Shown here piece by piece: positions 36,546 through 44,831 of a stretch of DNA of 48,155 nt. The DNA is from Chthonomonadaceae bacterium (GTDB lineage: Bacteria; Armatimonadota; Chthonomonadetes; Chthonomonadales; Chthonomonadaceae): positions 1-48,155 of the forward strand of contig JANWZQ010000063.1 in the NCBI GenBank assembly GCA_025054835.1, written 5' to 3'. The notes beneath the pieces are model-generated. The model was not told where the DNA came from, made no database searches, and saw only the letters and a program-made list of their open reading frames with translations. Position numbers and translations under genes: made by a program. Positions within the stretch are counted from its first letter, which is position 1; the number at the start of each line of letters is the position of its first letter.

Positions 36546-37011
36546 GGAACAACTCCTTGTCCAGAAAGTGCGGAAGGATCACAAAGAATGCCTTTTGCTC
36601 ATCACTTCCTGGCAAACATGTTAGTTCCCCTTCCTTAAACGCGCCTTAAACAGCAGTTAAATTTTCTTAATTCGGCCCATTCCGTCCAGCATTTCGCAGG
36701 ACAGAGCTCGTGCCAGCAGGATATGCCGGCATCGGGCAATGAGATCTACGCGCTCGTCATCGATCCCATGAACGCGCTGGCCAACAACCAGTGTCCGGAA
36801 CAGGAGAAGTTCTTGCCAGCAAGACCCGCCAGTATGGCCAGCGCTTGCGTCCCCCGTACGGGTAGCGGGCCCATGCGAGACCATGGAAGCAAGCCGTGCC
36901 GTCTCTCCCTTCGCGCACGAACACACAACCCGGATGCGCCCCGCCTTTCCGCTTTTCCGGCCCCCGACGCAGTATGGACGCAGATCAACGGTTCACAGGA
37001 GGCAACATCCC
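36546..37011. other. Intergenic region without convincing genes
   Basis: This 466-base gap separates two divergent genes. It contains the minus-strand leader and Pho-box-like repeats of the DUF1559 gene near 36618-36673. The rest (about 36700-36990) has open frames on both strands but no Shine-Dalgarno, protein family likeness or usual codon bias, so I call no gene there. Confidence 0.6.
36618..36673 (-). promoter_or_regulatory. Pho-box-like tandem repeats with downstream -10 element
   Basis: Copies of (C/G)TTAA(A)Y begin at 36634, 36645, 36656 and 36666, spaced 11, 11 and 10 bases, on the plus strand; two are the exact CCTTAAAC. The spacing and TTAA core resemble tandem boxes of OmpR/PhoB-type regulators. 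TAACAT (36623-36618 on the minus strand) is a candidate -10 ten bases downstream of the last box, so the boxes would replace a -35. Confidence 0.5.
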
Positions 37012-37605
37012 ATGCAATCCCGCCGTGTATGGAAGCACATCCGCAGAGCCCTTCCGTTCATCCTGATCCCTCTGGCCATCTTCTGCCTCATCGGGCGCCC
37101 CGCACCGAACACCGTTACACCCGCATCCCCCGCACCTGCGCCTTCTGCTATCTTGCTGAGTTTGCTGCTCAGCCCCTCGGACGAAACAGACACAGCAGAA
37201 GAGAACGACACAACCGACGACCACTTCAACCACGATGAGGACGACGAGGACTTCTCCAGCAGCAACTTCGATGACGGCTTCAACCGCGACCTCGATGACG
37301 AGGACAATGACTACACTGATTTCGCCGATGACTTCCTCAAAGACTTCCTCGAAGACGAGGATCTCGCAGACGATGATGAAGCGGGGGACGACTTTCTTAC
37401 AAGCGACCTCCTCGACGTCGCATTCCAGAACGATAGCACAGTAGCCGCACGGGTATACATCACGCGCACGGGCGCGTGCTACCACCGCCCGCGGTGCCAC
37501 TCCCTGCGCTTCAGCGCCATCCCCACCACGGCCCGCATGGCCTTCTCCCTCGGCCTGCGCCCGTGCCGGATCTGCAGGCCCCCGCTGCCAGATCTGCGCA
37601 AGTAG
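37012..37605 (+). CDS. Membrane-anchored acidic protein with C-terminal cysteine motif
   Basis: The 197-residue protein starts at ATG 37012 with AGGAGG upstream. Residues 12-28 form a membrane anchor or signal segment. Residues about 55-135 are extremely acidic (blocks such as NHDEDDEDF, DLDDEDNDYTDF and LEDEDLADDDEAGDDF). The last 50 residues carry VYITRTGACYHRPRCHSL and RPCRICRPP: C-x5-C and C-x2-C, as in the short C-terminal domain shared by many secreted bacterial nucleases and other envelope proteins. A metal-binding role (calcium on the acidic belt, zinc on the cysteines) is plausible but unproven. Confidence 0.82.
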   Translation: MQSRRVWKHIRRALPFILIPLAIFCLIGRPAPNTVTPASPAPAPSAILLSLLLSPSDETDTAEENDTTDDHFNHDEDDEDFSSSNFDDGFNRDLDDEDNDYTDFADDFLKDFLEDEDLADDDEAGDDFLTSDLLDVAFQNDSTVAARVYITRTGACYHRPRCHSLRFSAIPTTARMAFSLGLRPCRICRPPLPDLRK

Positions 37606-38008: not shown

Positions 38009-38293
38009 TCACACAGGCCGCCGCGCCTTCCGTCGCGCGCCCGTGCGCCGCGTGCGCTCCGGCATAACCGCCCCCTTCCGCTCCGTAATGTCCAGAGCCA
38101 CCTGCGTGTTCTCCAGCGCATGCGCCAGCGCATGAAACCCGGGCATGGCAGCCAGCACCTCCCGGAACTCCAGGAACTGCGCCCCCGCCTCCCGGAACAG
38201 CGCCAGAGCCACCTCCTGCTCGCCCATCAGCGCGCGGGTCTGCGCCAGCGCCAGCGTCTCCGCAATCTCCTCATACACATCATACAGCGTCAC
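38009..38293 (-). CDS. Small helical protein of unknown function
   Basis: The 94-residue protein starts at GTG 38293, with GAGGAGGAG five bases upstream, one of the best ribosome-binding sites in the window. The first 65 residues are predicted helical (YDVYEEIAETLALAQTRALM, EVALALFREAGAQFLEFREV). The tail is strongly basic (RTRRTGARRKARRP) and could bind nucleic acid. I do not recognise the family. An intrinsic terminator about 140 bases upstream on the same strand suggests it has its own promoter or is controlled by attenuation. The tRNA cluster lies 50 bases past its end. Confidence 0.72.
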   Translation of the reverse strand: MTLYDVYEEIAETLALAQTRALMGEQEVALALFREAGAQFLEFREVLAAMPGFHALAHALENTQVALDITERKGAVMPERTRRTGARRKARRPV

Positions 38294-38431
38294 CGTACTC
38301 CTCCTCTATCGGCCAGCAGTCCCGATGCCAGAACCACTCCGGCAGAGATCTGTCTGCACGTAGAGACTACTGTCCGCAGCGGAGCAAACCCGGAAACGCG
38401 CTCCCCACAGCACAGCGCGAAAAAAATCGGC

Positions 38432-38455
38432 AAAAAAACGGAAACCGCCTTTCCG
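38432..38455 (-). terminator. Orphan intrinsic terminator on the minus strand
   Basis: On the minus strand CGGAAA and TTTCCG (38455-38450 and 38444-38439) form a 6-bp stem, extendable with G-T, followed at once by seven T (38438-38432), with a second seven-T run shortly after. No minus-strand gene lies upstream. It may stop antisense transcription or act as an attenuator for the 94-residue gene. Confidence 0.65.
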
Positions 38456-38559
38456 CTTTCGCCGTCCCACGTATAGTATTGAATGTATATGGAAGTGCGT
38501 TGCGCGCGCAGGCACTGCCCCGGTGGTAACAACACCTGCAGCGGAATTCACGCGATCTC

Positions 38560-38588
38560 TTGACAGCTGGACCCGGCAGTGCTATGAT
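38560..38588 (+). promoter_or_regulatory. Strong sigma-70 promoter for the sigma/HTH/protease-helicase operon
   Basis: TTGACA (38560-38565) and TATGAT (38583-38588) are separated by 17 bases, a near-consensus promoter. Transcription would start near 38595, giving a leader of at least 128 bases. Confidence 0.85.
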
Positions 38589-38594
38589 GTACTC

Positions 38595-38722
38595 CCATCG
38601 TGATCCGTCACGGTAAACGATACATCCAGCCCGGCAACGCGCAACACAGCGCCCCTGCGTGAAATCCAGGGGCCGGAAGGGCCACCCCCTTCCTATCCCA
38701 TTCAGCAAAGGAGAGCACGCGC
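38595..38722 (+). other. Structured 5' leader of the sigma-factor operon
   Basis: Three possible hairpins occur in order: CGTGA/TCACG, GCCCCTG/CAGGGGC and GGAAGGG/CCCTTCC. They lie between the predicted start site and the first ribosome-binding site (AAAGGAG before 38723). No known riboswitch consensus is recognised. Confidence 0.45.
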
Positions 38723-38767
38723 ATGATCACACCCCACTCACCCCCTGTGAAAGGAGCACGCCCATGA
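38723..38767 (+). CDS. Possible 14-residue leader peptide
   Basis: ATG 38723 follows AAAGGAG and opens a 14-codon frame (MITPHSPPVKGARP) whose TGA overlaps the ATG at 38764 as ATGA. That second ATG is in frame with the sigma-factor gene and has its own AAGGAG inside the short frame. The layout is that of a translated leader coupled to the next frame. The peptide is Pro-rich, which could slow ribosomes. Its expression is unproven. Confidence 0.4.
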   Translation: MITPHSPPVKGARP

Positions 38768-38844
38768 CAACGTCACCGTTCTCGTCGCAATCCTTGTCGT
38801 CACCGGACAGCACACCCGAATCCACAACAAGGAGGAACAGAGCT

Positions 38845-39603
38845 ATGTCTACCAGAGGGAATGCTTTCCCGTTCGATCGCACTATCCGCCCCCTGCAGAA
38901 ACCCGGCAGGTCCCGCGAACCGGAGGTCGAAGCGCAGATCCAGCAGGTCTTCGACAACCCGCGCCTGCTCTGGGACATTCTGGAAGAGCCCGACGACTTC
39001 CCGGCAAAGCGCACATGCCCCCTCAAGGAAGAGACCCTCGTCTACTTCCTGCGTGAACTCATCCGCCATGGAGACGAACGCGGGTGGCAGATCGTCGAAT
39101 TCCTCAAAGACCGCGTCGCCGGGTACATCTGGAAGTGCATCCAGCCCCTGTACAAACGCGACCGGTGGGGCTCCCGGGCACAGGAATGCGAGGAGGACAT
39201 CCTCAGCAGACTGACAGAGGTCCTGCCCAGCATGGAGCTCAGCCATGAATTCTGGGAAGTCCGCTTCTGGTGCTGCCTCAGGCGACTCGTTCTCAACATC
39301 GTGCGCCCGAAACGCCGGGAAATCCAGACCACGGTCCCCATAGAGGTCTCCCTCAACGACCTGGAGTATCAGGAAGACCGTGACGCACGCCTGATAGACC
39401 GGCACACGCTGACTGCCTACCAGCGCGCCATCATTGCGGAAGCGCTCGCCCAGCTGCCCGACCATGAGCGCACCGCCTTCGTCCTGTTCCACTATCACGA
39501 ATTCACGCAACAGGAGATCGCCGAGCAAATGAGCGTCACCGATCGCACGGTGCGCAACTGGCTCAGCCACGCGGAAGAACGCCTCAAAGCATGGCGCGAC
39601 TGA
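38845..39603 (+). CDS. Sigma-70 family RNA polymerase sigma factor (ECF-like)
   Basis: The protein has 252 residues from ATG 38845, which is preceded by AGGAGG. An in-frame ATG at 38764 would add a Ser/Thr-rich stretch with poor codon bias, but it also has a ribosome-binding site. A divergent region 2 lies around residues 80-165 (EFLKDRVAGYIWKCIQPLYK, CEEDILSRLTEVL). Region 4 at about 190-250 reads AEALAQLPDHERTAF, HEFTQQEIAEQMSVTDRTVRNWLSHAEERL, a clear sigma-70 region 4 helix-turn-helix. No anti-sigma gene is adjacent; the HTH protein just downstream may fill a regulatory role. It probably directs transcription of its own operon or of stress genes. Confidence 0.85.
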   Translation: MSTRGNAFPFDRTIRPLQKPGRSREPEVEAQIQQVFDNPRLLWDILEEPDDFPAKRTCPLKEETLVYFLRELIRHGDERGWQIVEFLKDRVAGYIWKCIQPLYKRDRWGSRAQECEEDILSRLTEVLPSMELSHEFWEVRFWCCLRRLVLNIVRPKRREIQTTVPIEVSLNDLEYQEDRDARLIDRHTLTAYQRAIIAEALAQLPDHERTAFVLFHYHEFTQQEIAEQMSVTDRTVRNWLSHAEERLKAWRD

Positions 39604-39688
39604 CTTTTTTCAAAAAAATTGATCTTTCCCTTTCCGGGTTTCGTATCGACAGAATAGGAGTGGAGACAGAAACCCACAGAAAGGCAAC

Positions 39689-40330
39689 ATGTCAATGACA
39701 CACTTCGCTTCTGTCGAAAACTCGGATGAACTGGATGAACTGTACGCGGCGTGGGAGGAGGATCGCCGGTCCTCCCACCCCACGCCCCTGAAGGAATGGA
39801 TCCGCAGATACCCGCAGCACAGAGCGGAACTGATCCAGTGGGCCACCATGGCCCCCATCATGGACTACGCCGAAACCCTCCCCGACGACCCGGAGGGCGA
39901 GGCGCACGTCCGCGCCATCGGCCACAGGATCATCGAGGAAGCCCGCAGAAAGTGGCGCGCCCGGCAGGCGGCAACCATCGCACCGCCCCTGCGCAGCCTC
40001 CAGGCCACCGCACAGCGTGTCGGCCTCAACCCGAAAGCGCTCGCCACGCGTCTCGGGCTCGGCCTCACCCTCCTCATGAAACTGGAGTACCGCCACCTGC
40101 GCCTCGCGTCCATTCCCGATCGCCTGATCCGACAGCTGGCCGAAGCCCTGCAGGTCAGCGAACAGCACATCCGTGCCTACCTCCAGCAACCGCCCACCCT
40201 GGCCCCCGGCGCAAGCTATCGCGCCAATCAGGTGCCACAGGTCCCGGCGCAGGAGGACTTCGCGCACGCCGTGCGTTCCGCCCCTGACATGGACGAGGCA
40301 CAGAAAGCGTCCTGGCTCAATCAGGACTGA
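39689..40330 (+). CDS. XRE-like helix-turn-helix regulator, candidate protease substrate
   Basis: The 213-residue protein begins at ATG 39689 after AAAGG. Its N-terminal half (LYAAWEEDRR, LKEWIRRYPQHRAELIQWA) is acidic and helical and may be a sensing or interaction domain. Residues about 108-170 form an XRE-type HTH (AQRVGLNPKALATRLGLGLTL, then LRLASIPDRLIRQLAEALQV). A Pro-rich linker and a short helical tail follow (APDMDEAQKASWLNQD). The adjacent gene encodes an ImmA/IrrE protease, and XRE repressors are the known substrates of such proteases (ImmR, DdrO). This regulator is therefore a good candidate substrate; no cleavage site can be seen directly. TGTCAATGACA, an 11-bp palindrome, overlaps its start codon. 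Confidence 0.8.
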   Translation: MSMTHFASVENSDELDELYAAWEEDRRSSHPTPLKEWIRRYPQHRAELIQWATMAPIMDYAETLPDDPEGEAHVRAIGHRIIEEARRKWRARQAATIAPPLRSLQATAQRVGLNPKALATRLGLGLTLLMKLEYRHLRLASIPDRLIRQLAEALQVSEQHIRAYLQQPPTLAPGASYRANQVPQVPAQEDFAHAVRSAPDMDEAQKASWLNQD

Positions 40331-40416
40331 GCGCCCGTACGCCCGATAGAACGCACCGGGACAACGTGGATAGCGCACAACAACCCCGTGCCCGCCATCC
40401 CGTTGCCCCGGTGCAA

Positions 40417-40434
40417 CCCCGGTCCGAACCGGGG
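40417..40434 (+). other. Intercistronic hairpin before the protease-helicase gene
   Basis: CCCCGGT (40417-40423) and ACCGGGG (40428-40434) form a perfect 7-bp stem with loop CCGA, 26 bases before the ATG at 40461. Without a T-run it is more likely to tune expression or mRNA stability than to terminate. Confidence 0.45.
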
Positions 40435-40460
40435 CGTGGGGGCCGCACCCGTAACGCCCG

Positions 40461-43400
40461 ATGTCCGACCTGAACGGAATACGCCGGGCAGCACGCCGGC
40501 ACCACCAGCGACTGCGCCAGCAGTGTCAACCTCCACACCACGGCCTGCCCCACGCAGAGCAGCTTCTCGCTGCGGCCGAAGCAGAAACCGGACTCGCACG
40601 CCAGCCGCTCCCCCCGGGCGATACACTCCTCGCCGGCGCTCAGGCCGTATTCAACCGCCAGTTCGCATGCATCTACTATGATCAGAGCCTCCCCGCATCA
40701 ACCGCCCGCTTCGTACAGGCCCATGAGTTCGCCCACTTCTGGCTCCACTCCGACGTGCAGCAGCACACCCTGCAACTCACCGACGAATGGGCCGAAGTCG
40801 CAGGAGAGTTCCAGACATACAGCCTCTCCCTCGCCGAAAGCTACAGCCCCACAGAACTCCGGGAGCGCGAAGCCAACGCCTTCGCCGCCGAGTTCCTGCT
40901 CCCCGCCCCCACCCTGCGTCAGGCCTTCCAGCAGGGCCTGACGGCCGAACAGATCGCCGAACAGACCGGCGTCTCAGAAAGCTGTGTGCTCGGGCAGATG
41001 ACCCGGGCCCTCCTCCTGCCCGACACCTGTAACGAACCGAACGAACCGCAGGAAACGCCCGCGCTCCCTCTCCCCGACCACCCGGACGCCCTCTGGAAAC
41101 ACTACCCGCTCGACCCGAGCCAGCATGCCGCAGCCACCGTATCCACCGGCCCGGTACTGGTAGAGGCCGGGCCCGGCACCGGTAAAACCCGCGCCCTCAT
41201 CGGACGCCTGCTTCACCTCCTCATCGAACGCCACATCCCCCCGGAGAATATCATGGCCATCACCTTCTCCAACCGCGCCACTGAAGAAATGCGCTCCCGC
41301 CTCCGCCAGACCGTGGGCCACCTCGCCGACCGCGTCTGGATCAGCACCTTCCACGCCCTCGGCGCCGAAATCCTCCGCAGAGAAGGACACCACATCGGTG
41401 TGCCCCTGCGCCCTACCCTCCTCGAACCCGCCGACGCCGCCCTGTTGCTCGAGCGATACCTGGACCGCCTGTCCCTGGAGCAATACGAGTATCTCCAGCG
41501 CCCCTCCCTCCCCTTCCCGGACATCCTGCACTGCATCTCCCGGGCCAAGGACGAGCTCAAAACACCCGACCAGTACCTGCAGGCCGCCCAGCGGCAACTC
41601 CAGAACGCCCACAAAGACGAACAGATCCTCGCCGCCCGGAAAGCTCTGGAGGTCGCCCGGATCTACGCGACCTATCAGCACCTGCTGCAGGAAAACGGTT
41701 GCCTGGACTTCGGCGACCTGATCATGCGTACCGTGGAACTCTTCGACCGCTTCCCCGAAGTCCTCCGGCGATGGCAACAGCAGTACCCCCACATCCTCGC
41801 CGATGAATACCAGGACGTCAACCGCGCCTGCGCCCACCTGCTCCGCCGCCTCGCCGGCAATGGTGCCGGCCTCTGGGCGGTCGGCGACGTGCGACAGGCT
41901 ATCTACCGCTTCCGTGGCGCAGCTCCGGCCAATCTCGCCCGATTCGAACGGGACTTCCCGGGCGGGAAACGGATCTCACTGGAGGTGAACTACCGTGCCA
42001 ACCCCGCGCTCGTCTCCCTGATCAGCGCCGCAGCACAACGCATGGACCCCGAATGGTCCCCCGAAAATGAACGGCTCTGGACCGCGCAACGCGGCGCCAC
42101 CGAGCGCCCCGCCGTGACACTGGCCATTGCAGAGGACCCGGAAGCGCAGGCCGACGGGCTGGCCACCGAGATCCATGCCCACGCTCTGCAGGGCGTTCCC
42201 TATCCGGAGCAGGCCGTGCTGTGCCGCACCAACCAGCAGGCGGCAGAGATCGCACAGGCCCTCGCCTCCCGGGGGATCCCCGTACAGTTTCTGGGAAGCC
42301 TGCTCGAGCGCCCGGAAGTCAAGGACCTGCTGGCCGTGCTCGCGCTGGCCTGCAAGAGCGACGGGAGCGCCTTGCTCCGTGTGGCCACCATACCCACCTA
42401 CGCCATCCCCCGCCCGGATGTTCTGGCCCTGCTCCACGCAGCCCGCGCAACAGGCCGCCCCTTCCCCGGAGCCCTCGCCCTGACGGAGGATCTCCCGGAT
42501 CTCTCCCCTGCCGGGCGCGCCGGGTTGCGCAAACTCCGCGCCCATCTGGAGCCGATCGTGTTCCGTGGCAACGCCTGGCTGTTCCTGACGCGCTACCTGT
42601 TCCAGACCAGCGACTACCTCCACACACTCGCTCCGGAGCACTCTCTGGAGGGACAGCAGCAACGGATGGCCCTCCATCAGCTACTCCAGATGGCCATGGA
42701 GCTGACAATCAAGCTGTTCTCAGAGGGGGGGAGAGAGGCACAGGCCGCCTTTCTGGAGTACCTGCGTCAGCTGATGTCCCTGGGTGAGAGCCGCCCGATC
42801 GACCGCCATGCGCGGGACCTGCAACGTCTGCAAGGCGTTCAGGTGATGACCGCGCATGCGGCCAAAGGACTGGAGTTCTCGGTCGTCTATCTGCCCAATC
42901 TGGCCCGGGACCTGTTCCCGATACGCCGGCAGGGACGCATGGCGCACCCTCCTTCCGGCCTGCTCGGCGCCTCCGTCGAGGAGGATGAGACGACAGAGGA
43001 GGAGTGCCTGTTCTTCGTGGCCATGTCCCGGGCCAGAGATCATCTGGTGCTCAGCTACCCCGAAACGCGCCAGAACCGATCCTGCACTCCTTCGCCTCTG
43101 CTGATCAATCTGGATGAGATCCTGGTTGAGTGCAACGTCCATCGTGTGTACTGGCAACGCACCGCCAGAGAACCGGTTCCCGGGACGCCCGCGCTCCCGC
43201 AACAGCCCGGGGCCTTTCTGGAGGTCACACTGAGTGATCTGGAGCAGTACCGGGAGTGCCCCCGCCAGTACTATTACCAGCATGTGGTGCATCTGCCTGT
43301 CAGCGATGAGCGCACCCCCTACCGGACCTTCCATCGCAGCCTGAACGAGACCCTGCGCTGGCTGGCCGAGGAGCACAATGCGGGCCGCACCCCGGATCTG

Positions 43401-43928
43401 ACGGCGGTCGTGACTCACTGGAATGCGCAGTGGGAGGCGCACTTTGCCGGGGAGGAGAACGCGCAGACGCGTGTGCTCCGTCAGCGTGCTCTGGCCATGC
43501 TGGAGAACGGACACCGGTGGATCCTGAGCACCGACGGCGCGTTGCCTCGCGTCGAGCTATGGGCCACGCTCTCCGGAGGTCGGGTACGCCTGCGCGCCGA
43601 TCTGCTGGAGCCCCGGCCGGACGGTTCGATCCGTGTTACCCAGCAGATCAAGCGCCGTGCGCGCAAGGACGATCACACCGATCCGGCACTGGCTCTGCTG
43701 CGCAAGGCTGCCCGGCAGACGTATCCGCACGTTCCGATCGAGGTGCAACTCCATTATCTGACCGATGGGCAGAGCCATCCGGTCAGGGAACAACCGCGTT
43801 ACGAGCCCCTGCGTGTTGCGAAGTATGACGAGGCGCTTGCCGGGATCCTGGCCGGGAACTTCGCGCCGCACCCCGAGGAGCGCCGGTGCGCTTTCTGCCC
43901 CTTCTTCCTGATCTGCCCGCACGATTGA
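40461..43928 (+). CDS. ImmA/IrrE protease - UvrD helicase - RecB/AddB-like nuclease fusion protein
   Basis: The 1155 residues hold three parts. Residues about 20-190: an ImmA/IrrE (M78) zinc protease with HEFAH at 88-92 and a likely third ligand E137 in EREANAFAAEFLLP. Residues about 215-880: an SF1A UvrD/Rep-type helicase with Walker A GPGTGKT (237-243), DEYQD (448-452), GDVRQAIYRFRGA, EVNYR, TAHAAKGLEF and VAMSRARDHL. Residues about 925-1155: a RecB/AddB-type domain with four iron-sulfur cysteines (C933, C1143, C1146, C1152). In its PD-(D/E)XK core, D1047 is present, but the D/E before K1064 is Q1062, so cleavage may be lost or altered. No strong Shine-Dalgarno precedes the ATG. Last gene of a sigma-HTH-protease-helicase operon. 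Confidence 0.9.
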   Translation: MSDLNGIRRAARRHHQRLRQQCQPPHHGLPHAEQLLAAAEAETGLARQPLPPGDTLLAGAQAVFNRQFACIYYDQSLPASTARFVQAHEFAHFWLHSDVQQHTLQLTDEWAEVAGEFQTYSLSLAESYSPTELREREANAFAAEFLLPAPTLRQAFQQGLTAEQIAEQTGVSESCVLGQMTRALLLPDTCNEPNEPQETPALPLPDHPDALWKHYPLDPSQHAAATVSTGPVLVEAGPGTGKTRALIGRLLHLLIERHIPPENIMAITFSNRATEEMRSRLRQTVGHLADRVWISTFHALGAEILRREGHHIGVPLRPTLLEPADAALLLERYLDRLSLEQYEYLQRPSLPFPDILHCISRAKDELKTPDQYLQAAQRQLQNAHKDEQILAARKALEVARIYATYQHLLQENGCLDFGDLIMRTVELFDRFPEVLRRWQQQYPHILADEYQDVNRACAHLLRRLAGNGAGLWAVGDVRQAIYRFRGAAPANLARFERDFPGGKRISLEVNYRANPALVSLISAAAQRMDPEWSPENERLWTAQRGATERPAVTLAIAEDPEAQADGLATEIHAHALQGVPYPEQAVLCRTNQQAAEIAQALASRGIPVQFLGSLLERPEVKDLLAVLALACKSDGSALLRVATIPTYAIPRPDVLALLHAARATGRPFPGALALTEDLPDLSPAGRAGLRKLRAHLEPIVFRGNAWLFLTRYLFQTSDYLHTLAPEHSLEGQQQRMALHQLLQMAMELTIKLFSEGGREAQAAFLEYLRQLMSLGESRPIDRHARDLQRLQGVQVMTAHAAKGLEFSVVYLPNLARDLFPIRRQGRMAHPPSGLLGASVEEDETTEEECLFFVAMSRARDHLVLSYPETRQNRSCTPSPLLINLDEILVECNVHRVYWQRTAREPVPGTPALPQQPGAFLEVTLSDLEQYRECPRQYYYQHVVHLPVSDERTPYRTFHRSLNETLRWLAEEHNAGRTPDLTAVVTHWNAQWEAHFAGEENAQTRVLRQRALAMLENGHRWILSTDGALPRVELWATLSGGRVRLRADLLEPRPDGSIRVTQQIKRRARKDDHTDPALALLRKAARQTYPHVPIEVQLHYLTDGQSHPVREQPRYEPLRVAKYDEALAGILAGNFAPHPEERRCAFCPFFLICPHD

Positions 43929-43952
43929 GTGATGCGGAGACGCACCTGCCTG

Positions 43953-44831
43953 TTACGGGCGTTCTATTTCTTCTGCCCGGAGCGCTGTCTGCGTTGCGGG
44001 ATCGGCGTTCATCTTGCGGGCCAGAGCGCACCAGGCGCAGTCCGGGTCCTCGCAGAGCAGGAAGGAGCGTTCGCCCTGCAGGAGCGCCACGCCCATGGAG
44101 ACCAGTTGCTGCTGTGCCATCAGCTGTGCCTTCGCGTCGCCCACGGGGCCTTCCCGGAGGATACGGCTCTGGCGCAACAGAGGTTCGATCCGTGCGAACC
44201 CGCGTCGGCACTCCGGGCTGCCCTGCATGCGCGTCCATGTCGCTTCTCCAGTGCGGACGGTGGCGTAGCGATGGATGTAGGGCACGTTGGCCCAGATCTC
44301 CGAGAGGTGCAGGGAGACGTTGGCGGTGTGATCTGTTCCGATCAGCAGGACGTAGCCGTTGAGCTGGTGCAGGCGGGCCAGCGGGCTTTCGGAGCCGAGC
44401 GGGTAGTGGAAGGGCGCCTGCCGGGTGAGGAAGTCGGCCTGTGCCCCGATCGCTACGAAGGAAAGGATGGGATGCGTGCTCCGCCGAGCCTGTGGGTGTT
44501 TCTGAACGATCTCCGGGAATTCGCCGGGTGGTTGCGGATCGGCCGGTGCGGTGTGCCCATCGCAGAGCGGCACTGTGGCGCGCAGGCGTTCTGCTTCCCC
44601 GGTCGGTGTGAGGCGGCCTGCGCGCTCTGCGGGGTCACGATGCGCGGGGGTGAACGCCGGCACGAGCACGGTTCCTTCCGGGCCCAGCACCTGCAGCAAC
44701 GCGTGCAGCAGGGTGGCGCTTCCTGCTTCCATGGGGCCGATGGCCTGTGGTGTGGCATGGACCAGCACGGCCATGCCGGCTCGCACGCCGAGATGTTGCA
44801 GGTTTGCGGCAACCTGACGTTCGGTCCACAT
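43953..44831 (-). CDS. AAC(3) aminoglycoside acetyltransferase-like protein
   Basis: The 292-residue protein matches the aminoglycoside N3-acetyltransferase fold family: VLVHATPQAIGPME at the acetyl-CoA site, LGPEGTVLVPAF, STHPILSFVAIGAQADFLT and SPLARLHQLNGYVLLIGT. GGAGGGAAAA precedes the ATG. Many chromosomal members (YokD-like) have unknown natural substrates and need not confer resistance. The C-terminal end holds C-x4-C-x2-C (LLCEDPDCAWC), which is unusual and may bind metal. It converges with the protease-helicase gene. Confidence 0.88.
   Translation of the reverse strand: MWTERQVAANLQHLGVRAGMAVLVHATPQAIGPMEAGSATLLHALLQVLGPEGTVLVPAFTPAHRDPAERAGRLTPTGEAERLRATVPLCDGHTAPADPQPPGEFPEIVQKHPQARRSTHPILSFVAIGAQADFLTRQAPFHYPLGSESPLARLHQLNGYVLLIGTDHTANVSLHLSEIWANVPYIHRYATVRTGEATWTRMQGSPECRRGFARIEPLLRQSRILREGPVGDAKAQLMAQQQLVSMGVALLQGERSFLLCEDPDCAWCALARKMNADPATQTALRAEEIERP

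Follow-up and report, generated by a model that had tools for sequence, protein, structure and literature searches.

What connects a sigma factor, a helix-turn-helix (HTH) protein and a protease-helicase fusion that are encoded one after the other? The question is raised by a contig of 48,155 nucleotides (JANWZQ010000063.1; the whole stretch is referred to here as the window) from a Chthonomonadaceae bacterium, a member of the phylum Armatimonadota with a genome of 3.7 Mb. The answer judged probable here is a transcription switch activated by DNA damage, in which the fusion protein (FUS) would cleave the middle protein (MID) and free the sigma factor (SIG) for transcription of its own operon and of repair or defence genes. 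A preliminary description of this locus had proposed a candidate undescribed switch, and that interpretation gains support from the co-occurrence of the three genes, from their adjacency and from a sequence element that precedes repair genes. Inspection of the list of open reading frames (ORFs) confirmed three consecutive genes on one strand, as had been described:

38845..39603, plus strand: SIG, an extracytoplasmic function (ECF)-type sigma-70 family factor of 252 residues from ATG 38845, with TIGR02937 and Sigma70_r4 matches.
38764, plus strand: alternative in-frame ATG start of SIG, found by ORF inspection.
39689..40330, plus strand: MID, a partner protein kept beside SIG across phyla.
40461..43928, plus strand: FUS, 1155 residues, an M78 protease joined to an SF1 UvrD/AdnA-like helicase and a domain of Fe-S PD-(D/E)XK fold, by Pfam and a survey of catalytic residues.
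40650..40988, plus strand: M78 (ImmA/IrrE-type) zinc protease domain of FUS, with HEFAH at residues 88-92 and E135 (PF06114).
41109..43073, plus strand: UvrD/PcrA-type helicase core of FUS, residues 217-871, with Walker A and DExQ intact (TIGR01073, PDB 1pjr).
43224..43919, plus strand: C-terminal Fe-S/PD-(D/E)XK-fold domain of FUS, with four cysteines kept and (D/E)xK lost (PF12705).

A protein search with MID returned matches in 42 of 291 Armatimonadota genomes, mostly as one copy. In most of 40 loci from this phylum the order SIG-MID-FUS recurred, usually with overlapping genes or near-zero gaps, and the flanking genes varied between families. Two independent profile searches of the same 291 genomes detected MID in 40 and FUS in 47, and every MID genome also possessed FUS (40/40; Fisher p = 2e-42). 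Among 390 Chloroflexota genomes, MID was detected in 60 and FUS in 55, with MID present in 55/55 of the FUS genomes (p = 1e-61); both profiles were built from Armatimonadota only, and their training loci overlap the Armatimonadota test set, not that of Chloroflexota. At 33 inspected MID loci, SIG lay directly upstream in 33/33 and FUS directly downstream in 13/33. FUS is located away from SIG-MID in genomes G008, G009, G040, G041, G047 and G053, all of which still keep both parts. A scan of named genomes placed the triad in Acidobacteria, an Acidimicrobiaceae bacterium and Mesorhizobium huakuii as well. By these sequence criteria, SIG-MID-FUS is one conserved three-part system with a gene order far beyond chance. 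The preliminary description had asked whether the three-gene order is kept elsewhere, and whether homologues of the fusion never occur next to HTH or sigma genes; the order is conserved in Armatimonadota and in other phyla, and the co-occurrence of fusion and partners is near-perfect in two phyla.

SIG scored 58 bits against TIGR02937 (sigma70-ECF; cut-off 42.9) and matched Sigma70_r4_2 with E = 3.6e-15. The top PDB fold matches of its AlphaFold model (predicted local distance difference test (pLDDT) 87.7) were ECF sigma factors, comprising SigmaE (1or7; E = 1.9e-4), SigL, SigW and AlgU, and its sigma2-sigma4 two-domain fold matched SigE, SigL, SigW and AlgU with a probability of 1.00. By its predicted fold SIG is an ECF sigma factor, in agreement with the earlier assignment of the first gene.

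No Pfam family exceeded its cut-off with MID, the best match being HTH_31 (E = 0.28). The AlphaFold model (pLDDT 92.1) predicts a helical N-terminal region of four helices (residues 7-95) and an XRE/lambda-repressor-like HTH (residues 104-166), and the C-terminal tail carries the conserved pattern GASYRA..P..EdF..A....WL. The closest folds to the HTH were the 434 and P22 repressors, the N-terminal domain of CapH (7t5u; template modelling score 0.76 by target), SinR and the N-terminal domain of DdrO (6rnz), with E-values above 0.02, a weakness that reflects the small size of the domain. Despite the lack of a Pfam match, the model and these fold matches uphold the earlier view of the second gene as an XRE-type HTH regulator. 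At a Ktedonobacterales locus (L301:2644-3520, G298:C612), a SIG homologue is followed by a MID N-terminal domain that has no HTH, which points to this domain as the sigma partner, and the N-terminal domain of MID would most likely be its sigma-binding part. MID may be an anti-sigma factor instead of, or besides, a promoter repressor, an option that was absent from the preliminary description.

Several variants of MID were observed in addition. At three loci of genus g8 (L065, L066 and L067), MID is duplicated beside FUS, with one copy long and the other short; one of these loci (L066) carries two SIG-MID pairs in tandem. In a triad-bearing genome, an 80-residue protein resembling the MID N-terminal domain is encoded among genes of prophage-structural appearance (L299:3373-3615, G046:C36) and is possibly a phage mimic of MID.

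The Pfam families Peptidase_M78, UvrD-helicase, UvrD_C and PDDEXK_1 each matched FUS above cut-off, consistent with the protease-helicase-nuclease fusion recognized at the outset. The zinc motif (H88, E89, H92 and E135) is retained in 24/24 aligned fusions that span the region. The helicase scored 363 bits against TIGR01073 (pcrA) and matched PcrA in the PDB (1pjr; E = 5e-83), and both the Walker A lysine (K242) and the DExx aspartate (D448) are invariant in 25/25 alignment rows. AdnA and AdnB were the best PDB relatives of the C-terminal domain in a profile search, whereas a single-protein phmmer search with this domain gave no match, such that its relatives were found by profile only. The Fe-S staple cysteines (C933, C1143, C1146 and C1152) are present in 23/25 rows, with gaps in two shortened rows. 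The catalytic (D/E)xK, by contrast, is absent across 21 aligned sequences, and the AdnA segment VVDLKTG pairs with non-catalytic residues of the family profile (a weak alignment, E = 0.014). The supposition of a nuclease in the fusion is therefore not supported as far as an active enzyme is concerned. Shortened fusions (L059-L062 of genus g29, and L071) have degenerate helicase motifs and an intact M78 zinc motif; those of g29 also lack the nuclease fold, with HExxH kept (L060 and L062). By sequence, the nuclease motif of FUS is dead, with the protease and helicase motifs intact. Given that the nuclease motif is lost, that the protease and helicase motifs are intact and that HExxH outlasts shortening, FUS is best regarded as a protease on a DNA motor rather than a nuclease. 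Three further genomes (G003, G024 and G025; loci L281, L279 and L280) encode M78-UvrD-PDDEXK fusions that have no recognizable SIG or MID nearby, and the partners there have possibly diverged.

The region upstream of SIG contains two features relevant to its expression:

38450..38477, plus strand: two-block element TTTCCG-N19-AGT, enriched before SIG homologues and proposed as a SIG-dependent (autoregulatory) ECF promoter.
38560..38588, plus strand: sigma70-like promoter TTGACA-17-TGnTATGAT, which matches the consensus at 11/12 positions and carries an extended TG.

Alignment of upstream regions within genera revealed a conserved TTTCCG box. It was observed before SIG in 43/81 upstream regions (7.2 expected) and was weakly raised before MID (11/100, 5.8 expected). 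The complete TTTCCG-N19-AGT arrangement preceded SIG in 18/82 upstream regions (0.09 expected), and other lineages have the related -10 blocks GTAT, GAATA and CGATTA/CGACT. Sigma70-like sites of at least 10/12 were likewise frequent before SIG homologues (24/81, 2.25 expected). Because both the TTTCCG element and the sigma70-like sites are enriched at this position, two promoters are likely for the SIG operon. The near-consensus promoter of the preliminary description (TTGACA-17-TATGAT) thus stands, with the correction that an additional ECF-type element lies further upstream. We infer that this element is an autoregulatory promoter read by SIG. A scan of the plus strand from SIG to the end of FUS returned no terminator-like site, the first being a weak one at 43947-43961, as expected from the earlier statement that no strong terminator separates the genes. 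A second TTTCCG box with other spacing lies in the SIG-MID gap (39631-39636) and is a candidate internal promoter. A Shine-Dalgarno-like sequence of its own accompanies a short ORF at 38723-38767 (MITPHSPPVKGARP, stop), possibly a leader peptide, whose TGA overlaps ATG 38764, the alternative start of SIG.

The candidate regulon was assessed by pattern search only, in one genome and, for recA, in its relatives. TTTCCG-N19-AGT matched the source genome 16 times, compared with ~3.3 matches expected from base composition and 0 for the element read backwards. According to Pfam and NCBIfam matches, the genes downstream of these elements include SIG, ssb, sbcD-sbcC and recA, so that one element is common to SIG, recA, ssb and sbcD; others precede several unfamiliar membrane or acidic proteins, and those inside genes are probably chance matches. 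The exact element was present before recA in 9/29 triad genomes (six genera) and in 0/16 non-triad Armatimonadota genomes, compared with 0.115 expected by shuffling, and none was found on the opposite strand. The triad and non-triad sets differed with a Fisher p of 0.017 and, in a position weight matrix comparison, a p of 0.0013, both of which ignore kinship. A SIG-type element before recA, ssb and sbcDC lends weight to the DNA-damage response that had been put forward for this operon.

Three membrane or acidic proteins encoded just after an element (G000:C177:6219, C177:15029 and C47:8369; loci L417, L418 and L408) are candidate damage-response genes. Further elements in the window, and an associated ORF, are as follows:

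38369..38396, minus strand: second two-block element (TTTCCGGGTTTGCTCCGCTGCGGACAGT), directed away from SIG to ORF 38009-38293, from the pattern scan of the genome itself.
38009..38293, minus strand: small divergent ORF of 94 residues with no Pfam match and a two-block element upstream, a candidate regulon member.
36946..36973, plus strand: third two-block element, a pattern match in the same genome, before ORF 37012-37605.

The product of ORF 37012-37605 is acidic, probably membrane-anchored and has no Pfam match; its C-terminus contains a CYH...C...PCRIC pattern that recalls Ada-type metal-binding domains. At the other side of the operon, an aminoglycoside 3-N-acetyltransferase-like gene (43953-44831; PF02522) is convergent with FUS.

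These observations can be accommodated in the following model. Broken or single-stranded DNA would act as the trigger and be engaged by the UvrD/AdnA-like motor of FUS, with its inactivated, Fe-S-stapled nuclease fold, and this engagement would activate the N-terminal M78 protease. PprI and CapP are M78-type proteases that are activated by single-stranded DNA and cleave HTH repressors (PMC10904395). The M78 domain would then cleave MID, which is proposed to bind SIG and restrain it, most likely through the MID N-terminal domain; the XRE-type HTH of MID probably also binds DNA near target promoters. Released SIG would steer RNA polymerase to promoters of the form TTTCCG-N17..20-(AGT/GTAT/CGATTA), comprising that of its own operon and, in the source genome, those of ssb, sbcDC and probably recA. 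Transcription of its own operon by SIG would constitute positive feedback. On plasmids, SIG would drive an adjacent ubiquitin-like conjugation (Bub) operon.

The main rival to an anti-sigma function is that MID is a classical operon repressor of the DdrO/CapH type. According to this explanation, which is possible but unlikely, MID binds the promoter region of the operon, perhaps at the sigma70-like promoter, and cleavage by FUS derepresses SIG, such that newly made SIG drives the repair genes. The XRE HTH that MID shares with CapH and DdrO, the conservation of the sigma70-like promoter before SIG and the nature of the M78 partners in PprI-DdrO and CapP-CapH, which are HTH repressors (PMC10904395), are all consistent with repression. 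However, a palindrome search confined to the vicinity of the operon revealed no convincing operator around the promoters in the window, and the conserved upstream element, which the repair genes also carry, is an asymmetric and strongly directional two-block sequence rather than a palindrome. In addition, MID is conserved outside its HTH, and it is the HTH-less N-terminal domain that accompanies the SIG homologue in Ktedonobacterales.

Triads carried by plasmids bear on the proposed switch and on a second alternative. They were found in Proteobacteria (Rhizobium, Mesorhizobium, Bradyrhizobium, Agrobacterium, Variovorax, Xanthomonas, Pseudomonas, Acinetobacter and Klebsiella) and in Leptolyngbya; when a single plasmid FUS served as the tblastn query, 93 plasmid records gave a match, and 13/13 inspected plasmid loci match the SIG, MID, M78, UvrD and PDD profiles. 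In 12/13 of these (L436-L444 and L446-L448), the triad is followed directly by a ubiquitin-like conjugation operon, or by what resembles one in position and neighbours (multiubiquitin or DUF7665, JAB and ThiF/E1); the operon at L446 is annotated as hypothetical proteins only. At the thirteenth locus, from Pseudomonas koreensis, an insertion sequence occupies the place where the operon would stand. The operons match those of the Bub family, a putative immune family (PMC13373217). The TTTCCG element was present in 5/12 of the gaps before the ubiquitin-like operon (0.04 expected), and at the same plasmid loci it precedes both SIG and that operon with matching -10 blocks (CGATTA with CGATTA, CGACT with CGACT).

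The anti-invader role that had also been suggested for the operon draws support from these plasmid triads. It is nevertheless improbable that the triad is mainly an anti-phage or anti-plasmid module in which FUS recognizes foreign DNA ends, the sigma factor turns on an effector and the repair genes are incidental. Plasmid triads ahead of a putative immune family, and the UvrD helicases that Gabija also possesses, are in keeping with such a module. By contrast, the Armatimonadota triad is mostly single copy with ordinary chromosomal flanks, such as rimI-tsaD (named from sequence), and the element precedes recA, ssb and sbcDC. A tree of FUS agrees for the most part with the Armatimonadota families, and sequences from other phyla are nested within it. 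Because the tree follows families and the flanks are ordinary genes, the distribution fits a resident repair regulator in Armatimonadota lineages, with a mobile form on plasmids. No M78-helicase fusion was detected in the viral contigs scanned, and the phage matches listed for FUS covered the UvrD core only; a viral origin was rejected on these grounds. Assignment to Gabija was also rejected, in that PADLOC GajB matches arose through the UvrD core only and no GajA-like neighbour was present among the Pfam-scanned neighbours; other catalogued defence systems showed only UvrD homology.

The remaining alternative, which is very improbable, is that SIG-MID-FUS acts as a repair complex or regulates constitutively, without any proteolytic switch, and that a different regulator uses the TTTCCG element. 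In its favour, no part of the system is larger than the helicase, RNA polymerase is a known binding partner of UvrD/PcrA helicases (PMC5397179), and MID cleavage and sigma binding are conjectural. Against it, all fusions that span the protease motif retain HExxH and the third ligand, even where the helicase motifs have decayed (L060, L062 and L071), and the element goes together with the triad across genomes and occurs in duplicate at plasmid triad loci.

Several observations weigh against a damage-activated switch in which FUS frees SIG. FUS occurs without detected MID in 7 Armatimonadota genomes, several of which are incomplete. The TTTCCG box is not enriched before unlinked FUS genes (3/28, 2.1 expected), which indicates that SIG may not control unlinked FUS; the element was rejected as a control of these genes. 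At recA, the element of the source genome lies ~460-530 bp upstream, within the preceding gene, 20/29 triad genomes have no exact element, and the Fisher value, which takes no account of kinship, is modest. Half of the inspected plasmid loci have no recognizable element. Finally, LexA occurs in nearly all triad genomes, including the source genome; replacement of LexA was rejected for this reason, and the switch would operate beside SOS as an additional pathway. Replacement of AddAB/RecBCD is unlikely, given that the fusion has lost its nuclease motif and that the source genome encodes other large PDDEXK_1 proteins (1134 and 1396 residues), which are AddAB-like by size only. Taken together, the evidence tips slightly towards an undescribed class of DNA-damage response in at least six phyla, in which a helicase-fused M78 protease would read DNA damage and release an ECF sigma factor from its XRE-fold anti-sigma partner; Armatimonadota would use it to control recA, ssb and sbcDC beside LexA, and on conjugative plasmids the cassette would have been recruited to switch on Bub operons.

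How the triad relates to established systems can be considered in this context. As in CapP-CapH, a pair that controls CBASS, Bub and other immune operons, an M78-type protease is encoded beside an XRE-HTH protein, and the HTH of MID resembles the CapH N-terminal domain. CapH and CapP can stand upstream of Bub operons, as plasmid triads do (PMC13373217); this arrangement of an HTH-M78 pair ahead of an immune operon is seen at the plasmid loci and not in the window. CapP is a stand-alone protein, whereas in the members examined the triad protease shares one polypeptide with a helicase and a nuclease-like domain. Unlike CapP-CapH, the triad also has an ECF sigma output, a conserved promoter element and extra N- and C-terminal parts of MID, and it is also chromosomal and linked to recA, ssb and sbcDC. 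With IrrE/PprI-DdrO of Deinococcus, the repair regulon of which includes recA (PMC1978522), the triad shares the M78 HExxH and downstream Glu ligand (24/24 fusions) and the XRE-type fold of the partner. It differs in that a helicase replaces the GAF-like domain with which IrrE/PprI binds single-stranded DNA (only M78, UvrD and PDDEXK match FUS), the sequence seen before repair genes is an asymmetric ECF-type element, with no convincing palindrome in a search near the operon, the operon encodes a sigma factor, and LexA is also present. The triad would work like CapP-CapH and IrrE-DdrO and, by its protease architecture and included sigma factor, belongs to neither.

Other comparisons are more partial. 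SIG has the two-domain fold, the constant neighbouring partner and the autoregulated-looking two-block promoter of ECF sigma/anti-sigma pairs with proteolytic release (SigE-RseA, SigW-RsiW and AlgU-MucA), but MID is a soluble protein of XRE fold and the protease is a cytoplasmic M78-helicase rather than an intramembrane cascade. Like AdnAB/AddAB, FUS has a UvrD-type helicase followed by an Fe-S PD-(D/E)XK domain with a four-cysteine staple; unlike these enzymes, it has no catalytic D...(D/E)xK, it has an N-terminal protease, and its operon encodes no partner subunit. The damage-responsive controllers CapK-CapS and CapW/BrxR are also encoded upstream of Bub and other immune operons and respond to single-stranded DNA (PMC13373217), but they use kinase-STAS or WYL chemistry and have no sigma factor, protease or helicase.

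What is new compared with IrrE-DdrO and CapP-CapH is the output through a sigma factor and the fusion of the protease to a helicase. A search of the open-access literature, which excludes subscription papers and preprints, found no paper that describes the triad. Bacterial DNA-damage signalling has mostly been described as the inactivation of a repressor, such as LexA, DdrO, CapH, CapW or CapS. If the proposed mechanism is correct, a sigma-factor-based branch would be added to it, with a sensor of unusual design in which a DNA motor and a signalling protease are combined in one polypeptide. The promoter predictions that follow from the triad element can be tested at once. To our knowledge, no LexA-independent regulator of recA has been described in Armatimonadota, and the triad provides a concrete candidate for one.

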